64,000 nt of DNA from an uncultured Porphyromonadaceae bacterium. GTDB taxonomy: Bacteria > Bacteroidota > Bacteroidia > Bacteroidales > Muribaculaceae. The stretch lies in contig CANSRU010000012.1 of assembly GCA_947649495.1 (NCBI GenBank), positions 1 to 64,000 on the forward strand. The letters are read 5' to 3'. This document shows positions 24,560 to 45,849 of this stretch, piece by piece. The stretch's first letter is position 1. Every line of letters begins with the position of its first letter. Both the position numbers and the translations under genes were made by a program. Under the pieces are notes generated by a model that did no database searches, had not been told where the DNA came from, and was given only the letters and a program-made list of their open reading frames with translations.

Positions 24560-25459
24560 ATGGGAAAGATAAAAAGATATAAGAACAGCGTCGAACGTTT
24601 CCTCTCGGGTGAGAGCGGACAGCGCTTTTTCAACTTCGCTTACAGTATCGGCGCTGCTATCGTGATATGGGGTGCGCTGTTCAAAATCCTCCACCTTCCG
24701 GGTGGCAACACGTTGCTGTCAATCGGTATGGGCACTGAGGTGCTTATGTTCATCCTGACGGCATTCGACCGTCCGCCACGCGATTACAATTGGGAAGAGG
24801 TGTTCCCGGTTCTTTCATCGAAAAATCCTGACGACCGTCCTGATTTTGCGTCGGGCAGTGGTGTCGTTGTGACCGGTTCGGCCGTATCGGCCGCCAGCGC
24901 GCCGTCTTCACTACCAGCGGCATCATCATCGTCGGTGGTTTCGTCGGTGGCCCATGCGGCAGGTTCGGGAGAGATGGCCACAGTGGAGGAGCATTATATA
25001 GCTCAGATGGGTGCCATAGCTGAGCAGATGGCCCGTCTGAAGGAAACGACAGAATCGCTGAATAAGGTGAGCGAGGTGCTCCTCGACAGTTACAAAGCCA
25101 TCACCGAGAATTCCGAGAACATAACACAGAGTTCCACCGGATATGTTGAGCAGATGCAGAATCTTAACCGGAATATATCGGGGCTGAACACCATTTACGA
25201 GATTCAGCTCAAGAGTGTGTCGTCGCAGCTTGATGCCATAGACCGTGTGAACCGTGGCATAAAGGATATATGCAATATGTACGAGAATACGGCAAATTCC
25301 AGCGCACGCTACTGCGAGGAGAGTGAGAAAATGGCCAAATATATGCAGCAGCTAAATCAGGTCTATGCCAAAATGTTGCATGCCATGACCATAAACATGT
25401 ACAGCCCTATGCAGGGTGTGCCGGCCGATAATGCGGTCACCCCCGAGTCAGAAGATTGA
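24560..25459 (+). CDS. gldL: T9SS inner-membrane motor protein GldL/PorL
   Basis: A 299-residue protein with two N-terminal membrane helices (about residues 23-42, SIGAAIVIWGALFKILHLPGG, and 50-68, IGMGTEVLMFILTAF), as expected for GldL. A long cytoplasmic helical part follows (YIAQMGAIAEQMARLKETTES to the C-terminus). GldL forms the stator around GldM and uses the proton gradient to power secretion. The conserved glutamate in the second helix (GTEVL) is present. It sits between gldK and gldM. Confidence 0.93.
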   Translation: MGKIKRYKNSVERFLSGESGQRFFNFAYSIGAAIVIWGALFKILHLPGGNTLLSIGMGTEVLMFILTAFDRPPRDYNWEEVFPVLSSKNPDDRPDFASGSGVVVTGSAVSAASAPSSLPAASSSSVVSSVAHAAGSGEMATVEEHYIAQMGAIAEQMARLKETTESLNKVSEVLLDSYKAITENSENITQSSTGYVEQMQNLNRNISGLNTIYEIQLKSVSSQLDAIDRVNRGIKDICNMYENTANSSARYCEESEKMAKYMQQLNQVYAKMLHAMTINMYSPMQGVPADNAVTPESED

Positions 25460-25473
25460 AATCGATATAATAT

Positions 25474-27018
25474 ATGGCACAATCCAATACACGGCTTTCA
25501 CCACGCCAGAAGATGATAAATCTGATGTATATCGTCTTGACGGCTATGCTCGCCTTGAATGTGTCGAGCGATGTTCTCGACGGTTTCTCACAGGTGGAGG
25601 ACGGATTGTCGCGCACGAATCTTAATGTGCATCAGCGTAACAATGCTGTCTATGCCGACCTTGAGAAGTTTACGTCACTGCATCCCGACAAGGGGCGTCA
25701 GTGGCTGTCGAAAGCCACTGAGGTGCGGCGTGAGTCACAACGCATATATGAACTTATAGATTCAATGAAGGGGCTGATTGCTGTCGAGGCCGATGGCGAC
25801 GGAGCCGATATGACTAATGTGCAGAACCGCGAGGACCTTGAAGCTGCCGCGGTGGTTATGCTCAATCCCGGCCGACGTCTCGGAGAGCATCTACGTTCTG
25901 AAATAGATTCTTACCGTGCATATATAGAGGAAATGGTTCCCGACTCGGCAAAGAGGGCAAGTATAAACGCCGCTTTGTCAACCGCGCCATTCCGTCGTCC
26001 TGGCACAGCCATGCCGCAATCGTGGGAAGAAGCTAAATTCGACAATCAGCCGGTGGTAGCCGCACTTACTCTGCTCACCAAATTACAGAATGATGTGAGG
26101 TTTGCCGAAGGTGAGGCACTGAATATGTTGCTGTCGCAGGTCGATGCCGGCGATATGCGTGTCAATAGCTTGAGCGCTTTTGTCATACCTCAGTCTCGAA
26201 TGGTGATGCGCGGAAGCCGCTATTCAGCTGATATAGTGCTTGCCGCTGTCGACACAACTTCGCGTCCAAAAGTGTTTGTCGGCGGGAAAGAGATAGCCGG
26301 TGGCAAGTACGAGTTTGGAACAGGTTCTACCGGTTCATTCGATTATTCGGGCTATATAGAGGTCACCAATCGCGACGGGTCGGTGACAAAACATCCATTT
26401 TCGTCCAATTATCTTGTGATGGAGCCAAGCGCCACTGTGTCGGCTTCAATGATGAATGTGCTGTACGCCGGCATAAATAACCCGATAAGTATTTCTGTGC
26501 CCGGTGTGCCGATGAGTGCTGTCAGCGCTTCGATGACCAACGGTTCGCTGACACGCAACGGCGATCATTGGGTGGCTCGCCCTGCGGCTGTGGGTACTGA
26601 TGCGGTTATTACAGTGACCGCAAATATCGATGGACGCCAGCAGACTGTGAATACCACCAAGTTCCGTGTCCGTAAGTTGCCCGATCCGGTGGCTTTCATC
26701 ACCATGGGCAACGACCGATACAAGGGTGGAAAGCCTGTGGCAAAGGCTGCTCTTATGAATGCCAAAGGGCTTGAAGCGGCAATTGACGATGATATGCTCA
26801 ATATCGACTTTACGGTGCTCGGATTCGAGACTGTGTTTTTTGATTCGATGGGCAACGCCATCCCCGAGGTCTCAGCCGGAGCTTCATTCTCGTCGCGTCA
26901 GAAAGATTCTTTCCGGCGTCTGTCGCGAGGCAAGCGTTTCTATATATCGCGCATACGTGCCAAGGGTCCCGACGGTATAGAGCGTGTGCTTAATCCGGTA
27001 GAGGTGATAGTAAATTGA
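25474..27018 (+). CDS. gldM: T9SS motor shaft protein GldM/PorM
   Basis: A 514-residue protein with one N-terminal inner-membrane helix (MINLMYIVLTAMLALNVSS) and a long periplasmic part of helical and Ig-like domains ending in the GldM C-domain (residues ~400-514, DPVAFITMGNDRYKGGK onward). GldM couples the GldL motor to the GldKN ring. Length and order in the operon are normal. It follows gldL by 14 bp. Confidence 0.94.
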   Translation: MAQSNTRLSPRQKMINLMYIVLTAMLALNVSSDVLDGFSQVEDGLSRTNLNVHQRNNAVYADLEKFTSLHPDKGRQWLSKATEVRRESQRIYELIDSMKGLIAVEADGDGADMTNVQNREDLEAAAVVMLNPGRRLGEHLRSEIDSYRAYIEEMVPDSAKRASINAALSTAPFRRPGTAMPQSWEEAKFDNQPVVAALTLLTKLQNDVRFAEGEALNMLLSQVDAGDMRVNSLSAFVIPQSRMVMRGSRYSADIVLAAVDTTSRPKVFVGGKEIAGGKYEFGTGSTGSFDYSGYIEVTNRDGSVTKHPFSSNYLVMEPSATVSASMMNVLYAGINNPISISVPGVPMSAVSASMTNGSLTRNGDHWVARPAAVGTDAVITVTANIDGRQQTVNTTKFRVRKLPDPVAFITMGNDRYKGGKPVAKAALMNAKGLEAAIDDDMLNIDFTVLGFETVFFDSMGNAIPEVSAGASFSSRQKDSFRRLSRGKRFYISRIRAKGPDGIERVLNPVEVIVN

Positions 27019-33253: not shown

Positions 33254-35440
33254 ATGCTGTTGTCGCTCGCCATACCGGCCACAAGGCCGCTTGTGTCGTC
33301 GCCGGTCGCTATATTTCTGATAGTGCTTGCGATAATATTGCTTGCGCCCCTGCTGCTGAACCGCCTTAAAATTCCCCATGTGATAGGGCTTATAGTGGCA
33401 GGTGTGGTTGTGGGGCCTCATGGATGCAATATATTGGCGCGCGACATGAGCTTCGAGGTCTTTGGCCAGGTGGGGCTCCTCTATCTTATGTTTCTGGCCG
33501 GAGTGGAGATAGATATGTACCACTTGCGGAAAAATATAAGGCGGGGCTTTGTGTTCGGTCTGTTTACATTTGTCATTCCGCTTGTGCTCGGCACTATATC
33601 CGGACTTTTGTTCCTGAATCTGGATATGCTCACATCGGTGTTGCTGGCTTCTATGTTTGCGGCGCACACGCTGCTTGCCTACCCGATAGTGTCGCGCTTC
33701 GGTCTGACCCGGAATCCGGCAGTGATAATAGCTATTGCCGGTACTATATTCACGGTGCTCGGTTCACTGGTGGTGCTCGCCTCTATTGTGGGGGTGGTGC
33801 GCGAGGGCGAATTTAATTTTGCCATGATAGGCAAATTGCTCGGGGGGCTTCTGCTATATTGTGTGGTGACAATCTATGCATATCCACGGATAACGCGATG
33901 GTTTTTCAAACGTTACCATGATGGAATATTGCAGTTTGTCTACGTGCTGGTGATGGTGTTCCTTGCCGCGGAAACAGCGACGATGATAGGCATAGAGGGG
34001 GTGTTCGGCGCGTTTTTCGCCGGCATTGTGCTCAATAGGTACATTCCCGGCCGTTCACCGTTGATGAACCGAATAGAGTTCGTCGGCAATGCTTTGTTTA
34101 TCCCCTATTTCCTTATCGGTGTGGGAATGCTGATCAATCTGCGGGTTCTGATGTCGGGATGGGTCACCCTGTATGTCGCGGCAGTGATGAGTGTCACTGC
34201 GATGGCAGGAAAGTGGCTAGCGGCGTTTGTTACCCAACGTGCTTTCCGTATGAGGGGAGTGGAGCGCTCGATGCTTTATCAGTTGTCGAACGCGCATACG
34301 GCGGTTGCATTGGCTGTGGTTATGATTGGTTTTAAGCTCGGAATATTCGGCGAGTCGATACTGGATGGAACGATAGTGATGATTCTGGTTACGTGTACGG
34401 TTTCGTCGATCGGAACTTCGCGTGCTGCATCGCGTCTGAAGGTGCTCTCGCTAAAACCTGACCGGGTGGTGGAGAATGCCGATGCCGACAAGAAGCGTGT
34501 AAATACACTGATTCCGGTGGTGAATCCGGCGAGTGCCACTGAATTGGTAAATCTTGCCATGATGATGAACGGAGCATCTCGCCGTAACAATCTGTATGGG
34601 TTGCATGTGCGTAATGACAATTCTCCATCATCGCGCGCGGTCGGGCAGAACTCGCTCGATGTGGCGCAGCAGGTGGCCGCGAGCGCCGATGTGCGTCTTG
34701 ACCCCATAGAGCGTTATGATCTCAATTTTGTGACAGGAGTGCTGAACACTATCGAGGAGCGGGATATCAATGAAGTGGTGATAGGATTGCACCGACGCAG
34801 CAATGTGATAGATTCTTTCTTCGGGGATAAGCTCACGCAGTTGCTGAAGGCTACCTACCGTATGGTGGTTATATCACGTTGCTACATTCCGGTCAACACC
34901 ATGCGGCGAGTGGTCGTTTCGGTGCCTGATAAGGCTGAATATGAGACCGGCTTCGTGCGCTGGGTTCGTGCCATCGGCAACCTGACGCGGCAGCTCGGTT
35001 GCCGGGTGGTGTTCTGCTGTTCGAGCGCCACGCGCAGGTCTATAGAAGCTGTCCTGAAGCATGGAGGATATGAGATACGCTCGGAGTATCGTCTGGTGGA
35101 GGAGTGGGACGATTTTATATTGTTGGCAAACAAGATTCTCGACGAGGATTTGTTTGTTGTGGTCAGTGCCCGCCGTTCGTCAGTGTCGTTTACTTCCGAC
35201 ATGGATCAGTTGCCTGAATTTTTGCGCAAATACTTCGCCCAGAATAATCTGATAGTGCTTTATCCTGAGCAGTTCGGGGAATCGGCCGACATACCTACGA
35301 TGACGGATGTGTTGTCGACCGATATGGCGTCGGCTCCCTCGGCCTTATGGTTGCGGATTATGGATTTCTACAGATCGGCGTCGGCTTTGTGGCGTCGCAT
35401 CAAGCACCGCCGTCCGCGTCCTAATAAAATAGATTTATAA
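33254..35440 (+). CDS. CPA2-family cation:proton antiporter with USP-like C-domain
   Basis: A 728-residue inner-membrane antiporter. The first ~390 residues form about 12 membrane helices (AIFLIVLAIILLAPLLLNRL, IGLIVAGVVVGP, VGLLYLMFLAGVEID, MLTSVLLASMFAAHTLLAYP), matching Na+/H+ or K+/H+ exchangers of the KefB/NhaS type. The remaining ~330 residues are cytosolic and contain parts like universal-stress-protein domains (RRVVVSVPDKAEYETGFVRW). No TrkA-N domain is visible. Ion specificity cannot be read from sequence. It is cotranscribed with asd. Confidence 0.85.
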   Translation: MLLSLAIPATRPLVSSPVAIFLIVLAIILLAPLLLNRLKIPHVIGLIVAGVVVGPHGCNILARDMSFEVFGQVGLLYLMFLAGVEIDMYHLRKNIRRGFVFGLFTFVIPLVLGTISGLLFLNLDMLTSVLLASMFAAHTLLAYPIVSRFGLTRNPAVIIAIAGTIFTVLGSLVVLASIVGVVREGEFNFAMIGKLLGGLLLYCVVTIYAYPRITRWFFKRYHDGILQFVYVLVMVFLAAETATMIGIEGVFGAFFAGIVLNRYIPGRSPLMNRIEFVGNALFIPYFLIGVGMLINLRVLMSGWVTLYVAAVMSVTAMAGKWLAAFVTQRAFRMRGVERSMLYQLSNAHTAVALAVVMIGFKLGIFGESILDGTIVMILVTCTVSSIGTSRAASRLKVLSLKPDRVVENADADKKRVNTLIPVVNPASATELVNLAMMMNGASRRNNLYGLHVRNDNSPSSRAVGQNSLDVAQQVAASADVRLDPIERYDLNFVTGVLNTIEERDINEVVIGLHRRSNVIDSFFGDKLTQLLKATYRMVVISRCYIPVNTMRRVVVSVPDKAEYETGFVRWVRAIGNLTRQLGCRVVFCCSSATRRSIEAVLKHGGYEIRSEYRLVEEWDDFILLANKILDEDLFVVVSARRSSVSFTSDMDQLPEFLRKYFAQNNLIVLYPEQFGESADIPTMTDVLSTDMASAPSALWLRIMDFYRSASALWRRIKHRRPRPNKIDL

Positions 35441-35462
35441 TCCGCATAGTCAAGCCTGAGTT

Positions 35463-35654
35463 ATGTCGTTCTGGAAATTTATAAAGGGTTGGATTGTGTA
35501 CGATTTTCTGTTTGGACATCGTGATGACGATTGTTCGTGTGGCGATTCGTGTTCTGACTGTGATTCTGATGATGTATGCGGTGAGTGCCGATGGGATGGA
35601 TGGCCAACTGATATTGACGATTATATTGGGATGTCTGATGACGATTATGTGTGA
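35463..35654 (+). CDS. Small Cys/Asp-rich protein
   Basis: A 63-residue protein with an N-terminal aromatic part (MSFWKFIKGWIVYDFLFGH) and then an Asp- and Cys-rich core with six cysteines at 24, 26, 30, 33, 39 and 42 (patterns CxC, CxxC, CxxC). Seventeen acidic residues and no signal peptide suggest a cytosolic metal-binding or membrane-face protein. It lies 22 bp after the antiporter gene, probably in the same transcript. I know no named family. Confidence 0.55.
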   Translation: MSFWKFIKGWIVYDFLFGHRDDDCSCGDSCSDCDSDDVCGECRWDGWPTDIDDYIGMSDDDYV

Positions 35655-35668
35655 ATTAGTGATTGTTT

Positions 35669-36676
35669 TTACCGGTGAGTAAGCGCCATCCTGACAAAAA
35701 TATAATTAACCGACCCGCATATTGCAAGAACCGGTAGCAGAGCAAGCTCTGGTCCGGTTAGCATGCTGAATACTGACACCAGTATGAGTTGCAGGCTGAA
35801 GTTTAGGATATGGCTTGCAGTAAACAATATGGCTTTTCTGATATTTGGCTTTGTGTGAAAAGTGAACAGATTTGAAAGTATGAAATTACAAATAAGGCTT
35901 ACGGTATAGCTTATGACTGTGGATGTTACGGTCGGCATGCCGTAGTGCGAAACCAACAATAGAAATACCGAATATTGTATGATAACTGCTATGATGCCTA
36001 CTATTGCGAAACGCATTATTTCTGCCTTTCGGGATGATGTGTGAAATAATGTGGCAAATATTCTCACTATGCGTTTTCGGATGGAATCCGTACTTATTTT
36101 TTTTGAGTGAGCGGCAAAATCAAGCATTGCGTCATCGCCATTTGAGTCGCCATAAGCATACATGTTTTCGGGGACTGCATCGGGGATCTCCGCAATTATC
36201 CGAGCAACTTTCTCTTTACCATGGCAATTAGGCGTATGGAATCGTCCGGTGAGACATCCGTCGGAATCAGTCTCCACTTCAGTGGCAATTACGCCGTCTA
36301 TACCTTTGTGTTTGGCCCAAGGTTTAATCCAATCGGATAAACTTGCTGATACTATGTATAGTCTGTGTCCTGAGGCCTTGTGTTTGTTGAGAATCTCCAC
36401 GGTTGAATATCTTAGGTCTCGTTCAATCAAGGGTGCGAATTTCTCTCCAAGTTCACGGAATTGCAAGAGTGACATGCCTTTGAAGAGGCGGGAAAACAAA
36501 ATTTCCTTAGCCGAACTATTGCTGATGATGCCAAGCCGCCACATAATCAACCAAGGGAATGTTAATGCCATTCCGCGTATGAATTTAAATTTGCCGAGTG
36601 CAAATTTGCTGAATGAGATAAAGGTGTCGTGGCGGGTAAGTGTGCCGTCGAAGTCAAATAGCGCAATCGGCGTCAT
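35669..36676 (-). CDS. HAD phosphatase fused to a GtrA-like membrane domain
   Basis: A 335-residue fusion. Residues ~1-205 are a HAD-IB phosphatase (LFDFDGTLTRHD with Asp8 and Asp10; YIVSASLSDW; YGDSNGDDAML). Residues ~215-335 are a GtrA-like domain of four membrane helices (AEIMRFAIVGIIAVIIQYSVF ... YTVSLICNFILSNLFTF). GtrA proteins act at polyprenyl-phosphate-sugar steps, often as proposed flippases. I start at ATG 36676, which overlaps the UbiA stop as ATGA. Longer frames from 36709 or TTG 36721 overlap the UbiA gene. The fusion could dephosphorylate and present a lipid-linked sugar. Confidence 0.85.
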   Translation of the reverse strand: MTPIALFDFDGTLTRHDTFISFSKFALGKFKFIRGMALTFPWLIMWRLGIISNSSAKEILFSRLFKGMSLLQFRELGEKFAPLIERDLRYSTVEILNKHKASGHRLYIVSASLSDWIKPWAKHKGIDGVIATEVETDSDGCLTGRFHTPNCHGKEKVARIIAEIPDAVPENMYAYGDSNGDDAMLDFAAHSKKISTDSIRKRIVRIFATLFHTSSRKAEIMRFAIVGIIAVIIQYSVFLLLVSHYGMPTVTSTVISYTVSLICNFILSNLFTFHTKPNIRKAILFTASHILNFSLQLILVSVFSMLTGPELALLPVLAICGSVNYIFVRMALTHR

Positions 36677-37557
36677 AGGTAGATTATGAAGAGGAATACT
36701 ATTATCCATAATGTTAGGCAACTATGGATGAAGTGATCGTGAAACAATATTTTAGTGGGGCTTCCACTGCGTCCATCAACTATAGTGACCTGCAGATAAC
36801 GTAAAATCCCTGCGATGACGAATATGGAAGTTATGTAGACATATCCGCTGCCCATTCGATTCTCAACCTCAGGGCTTACAGTATAGCTTATGTAGCAAAC
36901 GACAGTTATCGCGCCTATAATGCCAAGGGTCTGGTTGAGAAACGCGATGTTGTAATTATGGGTGTTTTTTCTTGTTTCAATTCCGGTGGAGTTACGTATA
37001 AGCACGTCATCGTATCTTTTGGCAAATGCCAGAAATAGTGCTATAAGGAAGGTCATAAGCACAATCCATGGAGATAACCAGATATGACATGATGTGCCAC
37101 CGGCGAATAACCGCAGTACAAATCCAAGTGAAATTATGAAGACATCGATTATGGCAAATTGTTTCAGCCACATGCAATATGCTATATTCAAGATAAAATA
37201 CGTGAGGATAATTGACATGAGGTGGAGAGAGCTTCCTGATGTGAGCAGAAAGCAGGAAGCAAGTGCCAACAATATAAGCAGTGCCATTATTGCATATGCA
37301 GTCCGAACCAGAATGTGGCCGGCAGCAATTGGCCGAAATTTTTTCTTAGGATGATGCCTGTCTGCTTCGATGTCCAAGATGTCGTTCAGACAATAGATTG
37401 CACTTGCGGTCATTGAAAAGGCTATGAAGGCTACGATAGTCTGGTGCCAGCACCAAATATCGAATAGTGAACCGTTGAAAAACAAGGGAAGAGCTACAAA
37501 TATATTTTTTGCCCATTGCTGTGGGCGAATCAGATTTATCAAATGCTTTGATTTCAT
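36673..37557 (-). CDS. UbiA-family prenyltransferase, decaprenyl-phosphate phosphoribosyltransferase-like
   Basis: A 294-residue polytopic enzyme with about nine membrane helices. It has the RPQQWAKNIFVALPLFFNG N-terminus and YCLNDILDIEADRHHPKKKFRPIAAG, which carries the NDxxDxxxD (58-66) metal site and the basic HPKKKFRP segment typical of DPPR synthases (polyprenyl-P plus PRPP giving polyprenyl-phosphoribose 5-phosphate). The second region DVFIISLGFVLRLFAGG and FLAFAKRYDDVL also fits. The next gene starts inside its stop codon. Confidence 0.88.
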   Translation of the reverse strand: MKSKHLINLIRPQQWAKNIFVALPLFFNGSLFDIWCWHQTIVAFIAFSMTASAIYCLNDILDIEADRHHPKKKFRPIAAGHILVRTAYAIMALLILLALASCFLLTSGSSLHLMSIILTYFILNIAYCMWLKQFAIIDVFIISLGFVLRLFAGGTSCHIWLSPWIVLMTFLIALFLAFAKRYDDVLIRNSTGIETRKNTHNYNIAFLNQTLGIIGAITVVCYISYTVSPEVENRMGSGYVYITSIFVIAGILRYLQVTIVDGRSGSPTKILFHDHFIHSCLTLWIIVFLFIIYL

Positions 37558-37612
37558 TCAGATGCCGTATGATGTTGAGAATGGTTGTTTAAGTATCCTG
37601 TTGTAAGCACAA

Positions 37613-38914
37613 TCAGAAGAATAGATGTCGTACCATCCATTGAGCTCCTACATAGAGACTCCCTACAGGACTTTGACTCATGGCGGCAGTAGGGTCGTAA
37701 AAACATGGAGAGATGCCGAATGTCAGAAGAATGAAGATGAATACAGCCTTGGTGGGAGGGATGTTGGTACGCAACCAGGAGTTGAGACGGGCTACATCAT
37801 TTATTATCCGCTGGGGAAATATGGAACGGAGCTTATTTAAGTCGATAATCAGGATAATGGCAAACAAGGGTATGGTGATATATTGGAACAACCGTCCATA
37901 GTCGCAGCTCAGTATGGTGAACATAGGTGTCAGGCAAAGAGATTGGGTGAGAAATAATGTGGACACTATGGTTTGCAAATCACTGCTGTGGCTCGATTTT
38001 TCTTTTTTGAACACGGATAGGTAAAATGTTACGAAGTAGTAAGCAATAAAGTAGATTATAGGCCAATATATCAATCCTATGTAATTGTCGGAGGAACCCA
38101 GGTTACGTTGGATGTGCATTATCATAGTGTTTTTGGTGTCCCATGCGAGGGCTCCGATGCTATCAGGTTTATAGGTTATTTTGACGTCAGGGAGCACTGT
38201 GTTCCAAGAGTCAATAATGGAGTTCATTATATATATGTCACCTTTGAATATGCACGATATGATGAATACAGCCAGTATTAATCCAATCAATACGATGTTG
38301 GATTTGATGTGTCGGCGGTCAGATAGGAATATCAGGGTCAATATAGGAGCACCCCAAAATATAAATGCCTCATGAATCAGGATGCCGATTATGACGATGG
38401 CGGTGGCTGCAATGCGTTTCAGTAATGTCTGTGAAGATATATCCCGTGCAAGATATAATGAGCAGATGAGAATCGCATATAGAAGATAGTCCTTTCGAAT
38501 GATATCTACCGTAAACCCACACATCAGCGGAGAGAGCACCACCCACCAGCAGTATTCTTTTTCCTTGAATTTTTTGAGAAAAAAACATGCCACAAACAGA
38601 TACGCGGCTATACAGATGATGGTGATAAGCAGTTTGGGATTGTTGTTGGTCAACGAGGTGTAAGTTAATAGAATTTCTCCAAGGAGTCCTCGTCTAACGA
38701 ATCCTCCACTGAAATTTATCAGAAACTCGGAATATTGGAATGACTTGAGAGCATCGGGTGAAAAATATAGAAGAACAACAGATGCAAACAGTTTCGCTAT
38801 TACTGATAAGATAAGTATGGTACTTATTACAAATATCGGAGTAAATAGGGGCTTGAAAATTGGATTTAAATGTGCGCGCAATCCCATAAATTCAGGTAAG
38901 GCCCTGATTCCCAT
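37613..38914 (-). CDS. Polytopic membrane protein, unknown; possible lipid-sugar transferase
   Basis: A 433-residue integral membrane protein with 10-12 predicted helices. A conserved-looking loop, EFLINFSGGFVRRGLLGEIL, follows the first helix, and a long loop between ~215 and ~270 contains WNTVLPDVKITYKPD. Size and topology resemble GT-C type glycosyltransferases or other envelope-polysaccharide proteins, but no DxD-type motif is clear. The start is ATG 38914 (or 38887). Its place 55 bp upstream of the UbiA-like gene suggests a shared pathway; the function is otherwise unknown. Confidence 0.65.
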   Translation of the reverse strand: MGIRALPEFMGLRAHLNPIFKPLFTPIFVISTILILSVIAKLFASVVLLYFSPDALKSFQYSEFLINFSGGFVRRGLLGEILLTYTSLTNNNPKLLITIICIAAYLFVACFFLKKFKEKEYCWWVVLSPLMCGFTVDIIRKDYLLYAILICSLYLARDISSQTLLKRIAATAIVIIGILIHEAFIFWGAPILTLIFLSDRRHIKSNIVLIGLILAVFIISCIFKGDIYIMNSIIDSWNTVLPDVKITYKPDSIGALAWDTKNTMIMHIQRNLGSSDNYIGLIYWPIIYFIAYYFVTFYLSVFKKEKSSHSSDLQTIVSTLFLTQSLCLTPMFTILSCDYGRLFQYITIPLFAIILIIDLNKLRSIFPQRIINDVARLNSWLRTNIPPTKAVFIFILLTFGISPCFYDPTAAMSQSPVGSLYVGAQWMVRHLFF

Positions 38915-39228
38915 GGAGGCCACTATGTTTATAAAACAAAATACGTGGGAATCTTACATGTTGCTCTTCCCACCGTCTGAGGCCTTCGCATCGCCCGAAA
39001 TAGAGAGGTCGAGCAACGCAGAGGCCCACGTATGCAACTATTATGGCCGGAATTGATACCCAGTCAAATAACAAGCATACATAAAGACATCTACCGTTGC
39101 TTTTACCTGCTCTATTTTTGAAAGTTGCGAAGTTTCAGACAGTCAGGAATAAAAGCTTAGTAACGCTTTTGTTATATAGATATGATATGTCGCTTAGTCT
39201 TACTCTTAAAACTAAAAAGCGAGCAATC
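38915..39228 (-). other. Long untranslated leader or intergenic region with hairpins
   Basis: About 300 bp between a likely minus-strand promoter (39234-39264) and the membrane-protein gene have no convincing ORF. GTGGGAA and TTCCCAC (within 38945-38975) form a hairpin. GGCCT/AGGCC copies and a second CCCACGT allow alternative pairings. It may be a structured leader. Confidence 0.3.
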
Positions 39229-39233
39229 GTTTG

Positions 39234-39264
39234 CAAAAATACATTAAATGCTGTAGAATTCAAT
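39234..39264 (-). promoter_or_regulatory. Predicted promoter of the UbiA operon
   Basis: On the minus strand ATTG (39264-39261), 19 bp, TATTTTTG (39241-39234). It gives a leader of ~310 nt to the first gene. Confidence 0.5.
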
Positions 39265-39328
39265 GTTTTTTTTATGAAAATTCAGTATGTTATGGAAAAT
39301 GTAATATTGGCAGGAAGAGGTGGAATGT

Positions 39329-39424
39329 TTAGACATAGGCTTCGCTTATCACATCATCGAGGATGCCCTCTTCAATCTCCGAATCTTTTAATGTGAGGTA
39401 TATTCCAATTTGTTCGCTGTTCAT
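39329..39424 (-). CDS. Possible 31-residue small protein
   Basis: A short ORF 38 bp downstream of the GlmU-like gene, reading MNSEQIGIYLTLKDSEIEEG and ending ISEAYV. It is acidic and could form one amphipathic helix. I know no family; it may be a relic or a chance ORF. Confidence 0.25.
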   Translation of the reverse strand: MNSEQIGIYLTLKDSEIEEGILDDVISEAYV

Positions 39425-39462
39425 TGTGCGTTGTGTCGGTGTTGGTATTGAGGATAAGGATG

Positions 39463-40623
39463 TCAGCGGTATGTCTCGGTGAGGGTGTGTATGGCGGTCA
39501 GGAGGCGGCGTTCTGTGTCGTCAAGGGGTAGATCGCGGCGGGACATCATGCGTTCGGCAATGCTTAGAAACTTGGAGAGATGAACTTCAGTGAATCCGGC
39601 TGTGGCTGAGCCTTCGCTGAACGAAGCTACAAAGTTGCGTGGAAAACCGGTGCCATGGATGTTTACGCCCACGCCTGTCACGGTGGCGGTGTTGAACATG
39701 GTGTTTATGCCTGCTTTGGAATGGTCGCCCATAATCAGGCCGCAGAATTGTAGCCCGGTGCGCAGGAACCGTCGGGTGGCATAGTCCCATAGCTTTATTT
39801 CCGTATAGTCGTTCTTGAGGTTGGATGCCACACATCCGGCGCCGATGTTGCACCACGAACCTATTACGGCGTTGCCTAAGAATCCGTCGTGGGCTTTATT
39901 GGAGTATGGGTGCATCACTATATTGTTTATCTCGCCGCCAACCTTGCAATGGGCGCCTATGGTGGTGGCGCCATAAATTCGTGTGCCGATATTGACAGTG
40001 GCGTGCGGCAGTATGCCTATCGGGCCACGCAGGCATGAGCCTTCCATCACGGTCGCATCCTCACCTATATATATAGGGCCGCCGGAGGTGTTCAGGAATG
40101 CACCTTCTACGGTTGCGCCGGGGGAGATGAATACCATGGAAGGATCTCCGATAATGGTGCATGTGTGGCTTACGGGCTGCGACTGACGGTGGGCGGTGAT
40201 TCGGCGGAAATCGGCGGAAATCAGCCGGTCGTTGTTCTGGAACAGGTGGTAGGGGCGTTCTATAGCCGTTATTGGACCATCATATTGCAATGTTTTGCCT
40301 GGGTGGCCTGAGCGCAGTGCGATGGTTGTTCCGTCGGGTGTCTGAAGAGAGTCGCCGCTGCTGAGGGATGTGATGGCTTGAACCAATGCTTCGTCGGGTA
40401 TTATGTGTGAAGCGATGGTCAGATAATCGTCGGTCTCTTTTTCGGGATATTTCTCGGAAAGGTAGGAGGTGGTACGGTAGGAATATGAGCCGGGTAGGAG
40501 TGACTGCCATTTCTCGGCTATTGTGTCGAGCCCGATCAGGAGTTCGGAAACCGGGCGTGTGAATGTGAGTGGAAGTAGCTGAGTGTGAATGCGCGGGTCG
40601 TCGGCAAGTATTATATTGTTCAT
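39463..40623 (-). CDS. GlmU-family putative sugar nucleotidyltransferase / acyltransferase
   Basis: A 386-residue protein. The C-terminal half is a left-handed parallel beta-helix of hexapeptide repeats (VFISPGATVEGAFLN, PIYIGEDATVMEGSCLRGP, HATVNIGTRIYGATTIG, AVIGSWCNIGAGCVASNLKNDY). The N-terminal ~140 residues correspond to the nucleotidyltransferase part of GlmU-like proteins (NIILADDPRIHTQLLPLTFTRPVSELLIG), but the classical LxxGxGTRM motif is absent. Substrate unknown; a sugar nucleotide is likely. It is divergent from rfbC. Confidence 0.82.
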   Translation of the reverse strand: MNNIILADDPRIHTQLLPLTFTRPVSELLIGLDTIAEKWQSLLPGSYSYRTTSYLSEKYPEKETDDYLTIASHIIPDEALVQAITSLSSGDSLQTPDGTTIALRSGHPGKTLQYDGPITAIERPYHLFQNNDRLISADFRRITAHRQSQPVSHTCTIIGDPSMVFISPGATVEGAFLNTSGGPIYIGEDATVMEGSCLRGPIGILPHATVNIGTRIYGATTIGAHCKVGGEINNIVMHPYSNKAHDGFLGNAVIGSWCNIGAGCVASNLKNDYTEIKLWDYATRRFLRTGLQFCGLIMGDHSKAGINTMFNTATVTGVGVNIHGTGFPRNFVASFSEGSATAGFTEVHLSKFLSIAERMMSRRDLPLDDTERRLLTAIHTLTETYR

Positions 40624-41307: not shown

Positions 41308-44300
41308 ATGAAACTTATCCTAAAAAATCTAACATCATGGCTGACGGCGGTTATGGCACTGCTTGCTCCGATGGACGCTGTAGCATCAGACTATTGCACG
41401 TCAGGAACTTTAACCCGAACGGAGAACGACAGGTATCTTAATTCTATGACCTTGACCGATGGGACATCATCGTTGGCGGTTGCGGTAAATCAGAACGACA
41501 GATACGGTTCAGCTACATATTTCGATAAAACAACTTCTGTGCTTGAGGTTCAGCCCGGAGCCACAGTGTCGTTCAGTTCGTTAGTATGGACCGGCGCGTG
41601 GATGCATGCATACGTTTACGTAGATTATGACAATGACGGAACGTTCAATACGACGCTGAATGCTGATGGCTCAAGTATGGGCGAGCTGGTGTCGTATTCA
41701 TATTACAATGAGCAGGACGGGGACAATGCCACCGCTCCCAACAGCCGTGGCGTCATAGTGTCGCGGGCGAGTGGAGTTACTGACTCGAGTGTGCCATCGT
41801 TTACTGTGCCTGCAAATATATCAAGCGGAGATTATCGTCTCCGTTTCAAAGTCGATTGGAATTCGTTGGAGCCATGCGGCTCGACAATCCAGAAGGATGG
41901 AGGCTGCATAGTGGACATGACGTTGCGTGTGGCTGCGCCTCAGGAACGAACGGTGTCGGTGCGGTCGTCAGATGAAAACAAAGGGACTGTGTCGATAACG
42001 GGCGCAAGTGGCAACAGCGTGACCAAGGCCGGGCTGGTTGAAGTGAATGCGACACCCAAAAGCGGATATATGTTTGTGAACTGGACTAATGATGCCACTG
42101 CTGAGGTTGTGTCGAATCAGGCAACTACATCGGTGGGTGGAAATGACGATGTTAGCCTGACAGCAAACTTCGATAATTTCGCTTATGCGGGGATGAAACG
42201 TTATTTCACCGGTTCGCAGTCACAGCAGAACCGTTATCTGAAACGTGTGACCACATCCGGAACCAGTACTCCCGAAGTGTTCAACGCAACAACGCAGGCT
42301 GAGCTTCCATACACGGCATATACAGTATCGGCCGGAACTAAAGTGGAGGCCGGTGCCCTGATAGATAAAACGACCAATCCCATCCGTATAGAACATGGAG
42401 TCAGCTCGTTTGATATCACATATTATGCGTGGACCGATAATATAGGAAGTTATTCGTCGGAAATCAACTGGACACAGGATGCCTATTATATCGATTGGAA
42501 TGGCAATGGGTCTTTTGCAGATGCCGGCGAAGGATCGGAGAAAGGAACGACGTCGAAACCAGATGATGAGATACTGACCGGCGCAACGAGAACTGTGTCG
42601 ATTCCTGCCGGACAGGAACCCGGTGTGTACCGGATGCGACTTGTGTTCTATGAGCCTGATGGTGCGTCGGAAGAGTGGCACAAGTCCATGTTCGGGACTC
42701 TCAACAGTGAGATACGTAATGGTGTGGCCTATGATTTTGCCATCGAGATTATGGAAAAGAAGGATATGGCGATAACATCGATAGAGCCGGTGTATAGAAC
42801 CGGAGAAACGACCCCCGGACGAACAAACGTGGTGGTAGCTTCGCTGAAAATCGATGCGTCAGGCTCATTATCGCCAAAGACTGTGGAAACTGTCGGTATG
42901 AAATGGAACGGTACGGCGAATGTGAAAAATGTGCGCTGGGTGTATTCTGCTACCGGAACAGTGACGGACGACGTGGTGGCTACAATGCCGGCGACAAATC
43001 TGACGGCGGAGGTGTCGCTCAACAGACAGCTCTCGCCGGGTGCAAATTACCTGATGCTTGTGGCCGATGTTGAAGATGATGCGGAGATTGGCTCGACTCT
43101 GTGTGCCGAAATCCATTCGGCGGTTGTTGATGGTGAGCGTTATGACTTTGACTTGAGTAATCCAGAAGGAATTGTGGTCAGTGACAATTATGATTACACA
43201 CTTGGCAATGCGATATGGTTTGACACGCCAAATTCTTCAACTTCGGGTCTGGCAATATGGAATACCAACAATTTCGCCACTACCGATACGAATCCCGACC
43301 AGATGTGGGAGCGTAAATCGTATCCGATTGGAAATGGCTCGTTCGGAGCGACCATTATCGGTTCGATTGCATCTGAACGAGTCGTACTGAACGAAAAGAC
43401 ATTGTGGAAGGGCGGTCCTGCCACAGGTGTTTCGGAGTATTGGAATATGAACAATACCGTGAGCCCGTCGACGCTGAGCACTATACGTCAATATCTTGTA
43501 AATGGCAATACGTCGGGTGCCAATTCGCTTGTGTCGTCGAACTATAGGGGTTCGATAAATTACGACAGCAGCCGTTTCGGTTCGTTCACAACCATGGGTG
43601 AAGCGTATGTCAATACCGGTATCAATGAAAGTGGTGTGACAAACTATAAGCGTATTATGAATATGGACCGTTCTATTGTAGTGGTTCAGTTTGAGTCGGA
43701 GGGTACCAAATATCAGCGCCGTTACTTCTGTTCTTATCCGGACAGTGTGATGGTATGGCGTTATACTTCTGATGGTGCTCCGCAGAATCTCACATTCTCA
43801 TTCAATACCCCACAGGTTGTCAATTCGGTGACCTCGCCCGAGGATGGCTCTCTGTTGTACAATTGCAAGTTGTCGAACAACAATATGCAGTGGGCGCTCA
43901 AAGTGCATGTACGCACCAACGATGGAGGTACGGTGACGGCCAATCCTACTGCCCGCACAATCACTGTGAGCGGGTCGAATGATGTGGAGTTTCTTCTGGC
44001 CGGTGATACAGATTACGTGATGAACTTTGATCCCGATTTCACAGATGCAAATGCATTCGTTGGTGTAGACCCGGTAGAAAGTGTGACCAAATCAATTGAG
44101 AATGCCATGGGGATGTCGTATGACCAGCTTTATGCATCCCATTACGATGACTACTCCGCACTGTTTGACCGTGTGACGCTCGAAATCAATCCATCGGAAA
44201 CTTATGAGAACCTCCCGACGCCAACGCGATTGGCAAAATATCGTCAGGGGACACTTGACCATGGATTGGAGCAACTTTATTTCCAATATGGGCGTTATCT

Positions 44301-45849
44301 GTTGATATCAAGTTCGCGAGCCGGAAGCATGCCTGCCAATCTGCAGGGTCTCTGGCACAATAACACGGAAGGCCCATGGCGTGTGGACTACCATAATAAT
44401 ATCAATGTCCAGATGAACTACTGGCCGGCCACCAATACCAATCTTCTGGAGTGTTTCACTCCTTACATAGATTATATACGCGGGCTGGTGAAGCCGGGCG
44501 AGCGTACGGCTCAGGCTTATTACGGCGCGCGTGGCTGGACAGCCGAGGTGTCGACCAATATATTCGGATTTACCGCACCTCTTAATGCCTCCGATATGTC
44601 GTGGAACTACAATCCGACAGCAGGGCCGTGGCTCACAACACAGTTGTGGGAGTACTACGACTATACCCGCGACAAGGAATGGCTTCGCGAGATTGGATAT
44701 CCGATTATCCGCTCGAGCGCCAACTTTGTAAGCGATTTGCTCTATCTGCACAACGGTACATATACTTCGGCGCCGTCGTATTCGCCTGAGCATGGAAATG
44801 TGGATCTCGGCGCCACATACGCCAATGCCGTGACACGCGAGGTGCTTTCCGAGGCTATACAAGCGGCGGAGGTGCTTGGCGAGAATCCTTCGGAACTGTC
44901 GGAATGGCAAGAGAAATTGTCGAAGATGTATCCGTACCAGATTGGCCGGTATGGACAGTTGCAGGAATGGTATAATGATATTGATACATACAATGACACA
45001 CATCGCCACACCAATCATCTGTTCGGATTGCATCCCGGCACATCCATCAATGTGCTTGAGGATACGGAGCTTGCTGAAGCATGCAAAGAGACACTGCGTC
45101 AACGCGGCGATGCTGCAACAGGATGGTCGATGGGTTGGAAACTGAATCACTGGGCCCGACTTCTGGATGGTGATCATGCATACACCTTGTTTCAGAATCT
45201 GTTGAAAAACGGCACTGCCGACAATATGTGGGACCTTCATCCCCCATTCCAGATCGATGGTAATTTCGGTGGAACGGCGGGCGTGACGGAGTTGTTTCTC
45301 CAGAGCCACAATGGAATGCTACATCTGTTGCCGGCTTTGCCATCATCGTGGACGGAAGGTATTATAACGGGGTTGCGTACAAGAGGCAATTTTGAAGTTT
45401 CGATTGTGTATGAGAACGGCAAACTCGATTTTGCTGAGGTAAAATCGAATGCCGGAGAAGACTGCACCGTTTATTACAATGGGTTGACAAAAACTTTCAA
45501 TACGGTTTCCGGCGGATTGTATGTTGTGAAATATGACCCAGATGAAAATATGCTGATTATGGACGATCTTGCATCTATTGACGAGATTATACCGGAAGGT
45601 CAGGATGATATTTTGATCAGGCAGGACGACAATGGACGTCACGTGACTGTGGAACTGATCGGACCAGCCCGTGGGAATATAGTGTTGAGTGTCTACAATC
45701 TCACAGGCCAGAAGCTGAAATCGTTTGCCATAGACAAGACGTCGTCGCGTGCAAGTGTGTCGTTCAATCCGGCTGCCGGCTCGGGTGTGCTGTTGCTCCG
45801 CGCCGAAGGAGGCATGATGTCTAAGACCAAAAAGTTGATCGTTAGATGA
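41308..45849 (+). CDS. Multidomain GH95 alpha-L-fucosidase with T9SS sorting tail
   Basis: A 1513-residue secreted protein. Order of parts: signal peptide (~1-26); GEVED-like domain 1 (~27-215, YVDYDNDGTFN); an InlB-type repeat (~216-290, GYMFVNWTNDATAEVV); GEVED-like domain 2 (~292-485, YYIDWNGNGSFADAGEG); a sialidase-associated N-domain (~486-625); the GH95 catalytic region (~630-1412); and a T9SS type A tail (~1440-1513, ILSVYNLTGQKLKSF). The catalytic part has NNINVQMNYWPA, APSYSPEHG and PPFQIDGNFGG. Export by the nearby T9SS would place it on the surface, probably acting on fucosylated mucin glycans. Confidence 0.93.
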   Translation: MKLILKNLTSWLTAVMALLAPMDAVASDYCTSGTLTRTENDRYLNSMTLTDGTSSLAVAVNQNDRYGSATYFDKTTSVLEVQPGATVSFSSLVWTGAWMHAYVYVDYDNDGTFNTTLNADGSSMGELVSYSYYNEQDGDNATAPNSRGVIVSRASGVTDSSVPSFTVPANISSGDYRLRFKVDWNSLEPCGSTIQKDGGCIVDMTLRVAAPQERTVSVRSSDENKGTVSITGASGNSVTKAGLVEVNATPKSGYMFVNWTNDATAEVVSNQATTSVGGNDDVSLTANFDNFAYAGMKRYFTGSQSQQNRYLKRVTTSGTSTPEVFNATTQAELPYTAYTVSAGTKVEAGALIDKTTNPIRIEHGVSSFDITYYAWTDNIGSYSSEINWTQDAYYIDWNGNGSFADAGEGSEKGTTSKPDDEILTGATRTVSIPAGQEPGVYRMRLVFYEPDGASEEWHKSMFGTLNSEIRNGVAYDFAIEIMEKKDMAITSIEPVYRTGETTPGRTNVVVASLKIDASGSLSPKTVETVGMKWNGTANVKNVRWVYSATGTVTDDVVATMPATNLTAEVSLNRQLSPGANYLMLVADVEDDAEIGSTLCAEIHSAVVDGERYDFDLSNPEGIVVSDNYDYTLGNAIWFDTPNSSTSGLAIWNTNNFATTDTNPDQMWERKSYPIGNGSFGATIIGSIASERVVLNEKTLWKGGPATGVSEYWNMNNTVSPSTLSTIRQYLVNGNTSGANSLVSSNYRGSINYDSSRFGSFTTMGEAYVNTGINESGVTNYKRIMNMDRSIVVVQFESEGTKYQRRYFCSYPDSVMVWRYTSDGAPQNLTFSFNTPQVVNSVTSPEDGSLLYNCKLSNNNMQWALKVHVRTNDGGTVTANPTARTITVSGSNDVEFLLAGDTDYVMNFDPDFTDANAFVGVDPVESVTKSIENAMGMSYDQLYASHYDDYSALFDRVTLEINPSETYENLPTPTRLAKYRQGTLDHGLEQLYFQYGRYLLISSSRAGSMPANLQGLWHNNTEGPWRVDYHNNINVQMNYWPATNTNLLECFTPYIDYIRGLVKPGERTAQAYYGARGWTAEVSTNIFGFTAPLNASDMSWNYNPTAGPWLTTQLWEYYDYTRDKEWLREIGYPIIRSSANFVSDLLYLHNGTYTSAPSYSPEHGNVDLGATYANAVTREVLSEAIQAAEVLGENPSELSEWQEKLSKMYPYQIGRYGQLQEWYNDIDTYNDTHRHTNHLFGLHPGTSINVLEDTELAEACKETLRQRGDAATGWSMGWKLNHWARLLDGDHAYTLFQNLLKNGTADNMWDLHPPFQIDGNFGGTAGVTELFLQSHNGMLHLLPALPSSWTEGIITGLRTRGNFEVSIVYENGKLDFAEVKSNAGEDCTVYYNGLTKTFNTVSGGLYVVKYDPDENMLIMDDLASIDEIIPEGQDDILIRQDDNGRHVTVELIGPARGNIVLSVYNLTGQKLKSFAIDKTSSRASVSFNPAAGSGVLLLRAEGGMMSKTKKLIVR

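Follow-up and report, generated by a model that had tools for sequence, protein, structure and literature searches.

A 64,000-nucleotide stretch of DNA from an uncultured Porphyromonadaceae bacterium (Bacteroidales; Muribaculaceae; contig CANSRU010000012.1 of assembly GCA_947649495.1), hereafter called the window, carries three adjacent minus-strand genes. They encode a polytopic membrane protein of 433 amino acids (aa), a UbiA-family enzyme and a HAD phosphatase joined to a GtrA domain (Table 1). An earlier description made from the letters alone (the original prediction) had read these genes as an operon that may build a polyprenyl-phosphate-linked pentose, and open reading frame (ORF) calls, hydropathy and Pfam searches agree with its account of the three products. 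The operon limits, 35669 and 38914, agree with the ends of intact ORFs, and the UbiA and HAD-GtrA genes overlap as ATGA at 36673-36676. From the analysis below, carried out on the window and on the 2.45-Mb genome that contains it (34 contigs, 99.98% complete), we propose with a probability of roughly 0.7 that the operon is a probably acquired three-component system by which a surface glycan receives a pentofuranose, the likeliest being ribofuranose.

Table 1. Features of the operon and the interval that holds it (window coordinates)
Feature	Position	Strand	Basis
433-aa polytopic membrane protein, putative GT-C-like pentofuranosyltransferase	37613..38914	-	Adjacency to UbiA; acidic loop residue
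Predicted PPPRS/DPPR synthase (polyprenyl-phosphate phosphoribosyltransferase) of the UbiA family, 294 aa	36673..37557	-	NF008978, PDB 8j8j, PRPP residues
HAD-IB phosphatase with C-terminal GtrA, predicted fused protein, 335 aa	35669..36676	-	Pfam, TIGR01490
Operon-holding interval between kefB-like (33254-35440) and glmU-like (39463-40623) genes	35441..39462		Same-genus stretches, GC content

On sequence grounds, the UbiA protein is a phosphoribosyl synthase of the decaprenyl-phosphate phosphoribosyltransferase (DPPR synthase) type, as the original prediction had supposed from its motifs. It carries NDxxDxxxD, followed by HPKKKFRP, matches the Pfam UbiA model at 73.8 bits (cut-off 34.2) and scores 230.3 bits with NF008978, the NCBIfam model for decaprenyl-phosphate phosphoribosyltransferase, above the curated equivalog cut-off of 207. 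The sister models NF008977 (217.8 bits, cut-off 234) and NF008976 (180 bits, cut-off 474) stayed below their own cut-offs, as did the HAD-UbiA model NF006088 (179.5 bits, cut-off 351), and the remaining listed NCBIfam UbiA models, none of them for DPPR synthases, gave at most 43.3 bits. The top PDB match was M. tuberculosis Rv3806c (8j8j, E 3.1e-44). Eleven residues of Rv3806c that contact phosphoribosyl pyrophosphate (PRPP), Mg or phosphate were taken from PMC10994848; nine of them are identical in the UbiA protein, with Q135 replaced by N and Y157 by F. A search of the genome with the UbiA protein returned only the protein itself.

The fused protein consists of a HAD half (about residues 5-195; Pfam 125.9 bits, cut-off 27) and a GtrA half (about residues 222-330; 62.4 bits, cut-off 26.1). 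TIGR01490 matched the HAD half at 137.9 bits (cut-off 98.3). This half keeps stretches resembling what we take to be the motifs of active HAD phosphatases, and the GtrA half shows several hydrophobic stretches past residue 224. When the whole protein (a 336-residue query, 35672-36679, beginning one codon upstream of the ATG at 36676) was searched against 393 genomes of the order, only one match besides that of the window spanned both domains in one frame; it lies in genome G471, covers residues 5-333 at 36% identity and is free of stops. Matches in G411 and G319 cross the HAD-GtrA boundary only through a stop, and G411 has separate HAD and SMR genes at that place. The union of phosphatase and membrane part in one protein, which the original prediction had remarked on, is unusual. 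An assembly error is an unlikely explanation, since the G471 genome, which has the other fusion, consists of a single contig. A further candidate, an odd domain apparently fused to GtrA in locus L025, turned out to be a HAD gene in another frame that overlaps a GtrA gene.

The fusion probably arose twice, because the domains of the window and of G471 group with different separate genes. In a tree of 61 HAD sequences, the window HAD clusters with separate HAD genes from L132, L134, L135 and L136 (support 0.83) and the G471 HAD with those of L238 and L109, which are likewise separate (support 0.94). In a tree of nine GtrA sequences, the window domain clusters with separate GtrA genes from L134 and L130 (support 0.89 and 0.93). 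The argument rests on the HAD tree, joined for the window only by the GtrA tree, which does not place G471, because the node uniting L107 and L238 in the UbiA tree is weak (0.21). A DUF6080 protein (PF19558, 578.9 bits; L090:8962-10479), which as called overlaps the end of the G471 HAD-GtrA gene, is a candidate partner.

The 433-aa protein, the product of the first gene, is polytopic by hydropathy. Pfam reported nothing for it at E values up to 1, and in NCBIfam nothing exceeded a cut-off, the sole hit scoring 12 bits (E 0.15). Scanning the collected genomes with a pattern from an alignment of the family led to 198 confirmed relatives; the analysis used the best 80. A UbiA gene of DPPR type was present in the stretch at 27 of these best 80 loci and directly adjoined the first gene in 26; a HAD gene was also present in 23 of the 27. 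An acidic residue follows the first hydrophobic segment, in the loop, in 11 of 11 aligned homologues (alignment A1). We base this claim on A1, which was gathered without the motif, because the columns E/D-F/W-L/M-I-N-x-x-G-G of a larger alignment (A2, 67 rows) are biased, the motif having been the search pattern. In one UbiA locus (L093), the slot before UbiA is held by a PMT_2-type (GT-C) protein (30.4 bits, cut-off 26.1). As judged from its neighbourhood, the 433-aa protein is likely to be the glycosyltransferase (GT) of the operon and is treated here as a putative one. Its best match, at 43% identity, lies in L130 (JAMPBQ010000028.1), where the gene order is GT-UbiA-HAD-GtrA as in the window; the metagenome-assembled genome is labelled Clostridium sp., a label that may be wrong, or the contig may be a contaminant.

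At E 1e-10, 20 of the 149 family genomes contain a UbiA relative, and at E 1e-20, 29 of the 393 order genomes do, the window included in both counts. Beyond the window, 46 of these UbiA places were surveyed: 19 belong to the family, in stretches 6 to 17 kb long, and 27 lie elsewhere in the order (2 to 18 kb); the latter correspond to 28 rows, two of which are pieces of one gene. The profiles for HAD, UbiA, GtrA, SMR and the first gene derive from BLAST matches at loci that partly coincide with the 46 counted. A HAD gene lies beside UbiA in 14 of the 19 family relatives, with an SMR gene intervening in L002. It is present in the UbiA stretch in 21 of the 27 other relatives (at most 100 bp away or overlapping in 16), and two further order genomes, G336 and G315, have HAD about 1.5 to 1.7 kb from UbiA. 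In L128, a weak HAD region (20.6 bits, cut-off 27) precedes UbiA within one ORF. An SMR gene belongs to the set at seven of the 46 relatives (L002, L103, L104, L105, L106, L108 and L111) and a GtrA gene at three (L003, L006 and L107, fused in the last). Among the 27 UbiA-bearing first-gene loci, three have SMR (L133, L143 and L165) and five have GtrA (L130, L134, L161 and L185 by profile, L170 by Pfam). This survey and the other locus survey are not independent, because some contigs are shared (L133 with L021, L161 with L022). The SMR protein of L086 best matches ArnF (69.8, cut-off 99) and ArnE (42.3, cut-off 92), in both cases below the cut-off, and in the Prochlorococcus locus L195 an LPG_synthase_TM protein is found where SMR or GtrA would sit. 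Since some related UbiA-HAD loci have SMR and others GtrA next in line, the fused GtrA appears to occupy a flippase slot. Taken together, the counts of HAD, SMR, GtrA and first-gene members in the 46 relatives indicate that the UbiA-HAD pair is stable, while the flippase and the putative transferase change.

Several variants of these loci were noted. Four Bacteroidales loci carry an Acyl_transf_3-type gene (340-363 aa) between UbiA and HAD, identified by Pfam in L162 and L174 and by BLAST in L172 and L187; the sugar may be acylated there. An 848-aa ORF beside UbiA in L032 (5815-8361) starts with a HAD domain, after which some 600 residues match nothing in Pfam; it is possibly a HAD fused to a membrane transferase. 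The UbiA relative of G315 (C40:10448-11315; L127 and L129), some 1.5 kb from HAD, is in two pieces with three in-frame stops and looks like a decaying copy.

Concerning the identity of the sugar, neither the DprE1 model NF053785 nor the ALO domain PF04030 found a match in the genome. The positive control, C. glutamicum, was detected in the control sets of both searches; PF04030 alone can miss its cut-off on DprE1-like proteins, as it did in L195. The single FAD_binding_4 hit of the genome was not reported by the DprE1 model. The DprE2 model gave four hits to short-chain dehydrogenase/reductase (SDR) proteins, at 44.4-62.4 bits, where the cut-off is 250; this model also hits 13 of 14 control genomes, exceeding the cut-off in one. 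Thus, the lack of a DprE1/DprE2 pair, which the original prediction had reported for the window, holds in the case of DprE1 for the genome as a whole, with only four SDR hits far below the cut-off for DprE2. Since no DprE1 was found, ribofuranose is expected and arabinofuranose is not; the sugar probably stays ribose, in line with the original prediction, and the mycobacterial arabinose pathway was rejected on the same grounds.

DprE1- and DprE2-like genes do occur beside the first-gene family elsewhere. In Prochlorococcus, L195 (1-5190) has both, together with a UbiA gene, next to a family member; its DprE1-like protein scores 475.9 against a cut-off of 500 and its DprE2-like protein 86.2 against 250, both below cut-off. 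A second Prochlorococcus locus (L186:507-3854) has such genes beside the first-gene family, as identified by Pfam and BLAST. Both look like arabinofuranose donor cassettes of marine cyanobacteria. Suspected DprE1/DprE2 neighbours in L202 are pilus-assembly genes.

The operon is probably an accessory cassette that was acquired. Its GC content (41.9% for 35669-38914) lies below that of the window outside 35501-39100 (49.1%). A search for the kefB-like neighbour detected it in 31 further genomes of the genus, and in the downstream stretches taken from 20 of these none of the three operon proteins had a match. The gap between the kefB-like and glmU-like genes measures 0-90 bp in eight of the 20 stretches. 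Two stretches have two other genes there (an outer-membrane protein and a PD40 protein in one, a VKOR protein and a thioredoxin in the other), and in the remaining ten, two of which stop at 2.5 and 3.4 kb, no glmU-like gene was found. Among the matches listed, one of nine other same-genus genomes has a UbiA relative (G105, on a different contig). A phage origin was rejected: the lone matching phage record, MT837543.1 (L237, 'Bacteriophage sp.', from human faeces), is marked unverified and by eye resembles a bacterial glycan locus. It carries UbiA-HAD-SMR as well as ORFs labelled by eye as epimerase-like and Wzx-like, and is probably bacterial surface-glycan DNA. Elsewhere in the window lie genes for GldL and GldM of the type IX secretion/gliding machinery (24560-27018) and for a 1513-aa GH95 glycoside hydrolase with a GEVED domain (41308-45849). 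The GH95 gene is missing between rmlC and the next 127-aa ORF in the same-genus stretch L213, so that it is perhaps a second insertion at the site.

In the pathway that we propose, the UbiA enzyme would load ribose, with PRPP as the donor, onto what we infer to be a membrane lipid. The HAD half would then remove the 5'-phosphate, a role suggested by its family, its position and a precedent in Citrobacter. The GtrA half may help to bring undecaprenyl-phosphate-ribofuranose to the periplasm, considering that in some relatives its slot is taken by an ArnE/F-like SMR protein, and the 433-aa membrane protein would transfer the sugar to an outside polysaccharide or glycolipid, as its neighbourhood suggests. 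A bolder version combines two proposals, which we put forward jointly and tentatively: that HAD-GtrA is a phosphatase-gated flippase and that the 433-aa family is a new family of pentofuranosyltransferases. The gated flippase would pass to export only ribosyl-lipid just freed of its 5'-phosphate, so that commitment and flipping would reside in one polypeptide. The proposed transferase family is common in Bacteroidota and occurs in Prochlorococcus beside the DprE1/DprE2-like genes.

A number of observations weigh against the proposed pathway. HAD is not beside UbiA in five of the 19 family relatives. Neither SMR nor GtrA was seen in 19 of the 27 UbiA-bearing first-gene loci, a number that is an upper limit because the GtrA profile missed L170; the near relatives L131, L132, L135 and L136 are among these loci. 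The genome has one more GtrA gene elsewhere, and whether GtrA proteins act as lipid flippases or as anchors of other enzymes is disputed (PMC7389260). With respect to the first gene, 53 of the 80 loci are without UbiA and 12 of the 80 have a GT2 glycosyltransferase gene no further than 1.5 kb away, which indicates that the family is not restricted to pentose donors. Seen from UbiA, the family is present in only three of the 46 relatives (L002, L003 and L104). Known GT-C enzymes show no significant similarity to the first-gene family, for which a PDB search returned at best a designed-looking entry (E 0.04). PMT_2 was reported in two of 67 family members at E 0.003 or worse. The idea that the first gene is homologous to the PMT_2-type proteins that hold its slot elsewhere was rejected for want of a profile match. 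For the expectation of the original prediction that the trio stays together, the outcome is mixed: the UbiA-HAD pair stays together, and the first gene adjoins UbiA in 26 of its best 80 loci, but few of the UbiA relatives have the first gene.

The first gene could instead encode a glycan polymerase, ligase or transporter, the pentose being used by an enzyme encoded elsewhere. The lack of a significant Pfam, NCBIfam or PDB match would suit this, as would the scarcity of the family among UbiA relatives and the many family members without UbiA, in places located by GT2 and STELLO-like genes; yet the gene adjoins UbiA in 26 of the best 80 loci although such a UbiA occurs in just 29 of 393 order genomes, and DprE1/DprE2-like genes adjoin the family in the two Prochlorococcus loci. 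The acidic loop residue conserved in all 11 homologues is, in addition, expected of GT-C enzymes (PMC11127046). We regard this alternative as rather doubtful. That the pentose made by the same donor pathway is epimerised to xylo- or arabinofuranose before transfer, by enzymes encoded elsewhere, seems quite unlikely. Citrobacter O2 does use a separate SDR epimerase (PMC11127046), the related cassette L237 has an extra 321-aa ORF that by eye resembles an NAD-dependent epimerase, and the genome contains the four SDR proteins hit by the DprE2 model. These proteins, however, score far below the cut-off of a model that matches nearly all control genomes, DprE1 was found by neither of two models, and the operon contains no epimerase (the genome was not searched for ORF13-type epimerases). 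Finally, the UbiA domain is shared with quinone and haem prenyltransferases, and a member of that class next to an unrelated phosphatase would contradict the original prediction; with non-DPPR models at 43.3 bits or less against 230.3 for DPPR synthase, and with the PRPP residues kept, this class is rejected on sequence evidence and the alternative is highly improbable.

If the operon does add a pentofuranose to a surface glycan, gut Bacteroidales join the bacteria in which lipid-linked pentofuranose serves for such modification. A literature search, covering few subscription papers and not the candidate-list supplement of PMC11127046, found no such system described for gut Bacteroidales or Bacteroidota. 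The type of pathway has already been published, since a pentofuranose side-chain system of Citrobacter is the closer model; what is new here is the HAD-GtrA fusion, GtrA in the SMR slot and a putative transferase family that neither Pfam nor NCBIfam recognises. With a phosphatase fused to it, the GtrA domain would have a defined lipid-sugar as its substrate, which offers a direct route to the disputed question of flipping (PMC7389260), and the first-gene proteins are candidates for a new family of glycosyltransferases.

Among published systems, that of Citrobacter youngae O1/O2, with ORF12 (GT136), ORF14 (flippase) and ORF15 (HAD-PPPRS), is the closest model. Genetics, in vitro synthesis and nuclear magnetic resonance in PMC11127046 establish that prenyl-phosphate-ribofuranose is made from PRPP by an enzyme of UbiA type together with a HAD domain, and that a GT-C enzyme adds the prenyl-phosphate-linked ribofuranose to the O antigen; the flippase is predicted there. 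Citrobacter and the window have in common a UbiA-type PPPRS, a HAD phosphatase, a small candidate flippase and a putative GT that is polytopic, all encoded together. They differ in that HAD is fused to UbiA in Citrobacter, where an EmrE/ArnE-like protein encoded on its own is the candidate flippase, whereas HAD is fused to GtrA in the window; the HAD-before-UbiA order of L128 resembles that of Citrobacter ORF15. The GT136 enzyme of Citrobacter extends to residue 652 or beyond and carries a carbohydrate-binding module; the putative GT of the window has 433 aa.

The original prediction had drawn its analogy from the mycobacterial decaprenyl-phosphoryl-arabinose pathway (Rv3806c, Rv3807c, DprE1/DprE2 and Rv3789). 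The shared DPPR synthase and GtrA-family protein bear this out, but the phosphatase does not: Rv3807c is not of the HAD class (PMC11127046), and no DprE1 was found in the window genome. Because of this difference in phosphatase, the window fits the Citrobacter scheme better. Two other Bacteroidales loci, in Prevotella sp. oral taxon 299 (L238) and in G471 (L090/L107), have UbiA-HAD-GtrA as in the window, with HAD and GtrA fused in G471; no member of the first-gene family was found in either stretch, and the G471 fusion looks independent of that in the window. The gtrABC cassettes for O-antigen glucosylation share the three-component logic, GtrA (PMC11127046) and accessory insertion with the operon, and differ in the donor, which would be PRPP via the UbiA enzyme in the window and is UDP-glucose via GtrB in gtrABC.

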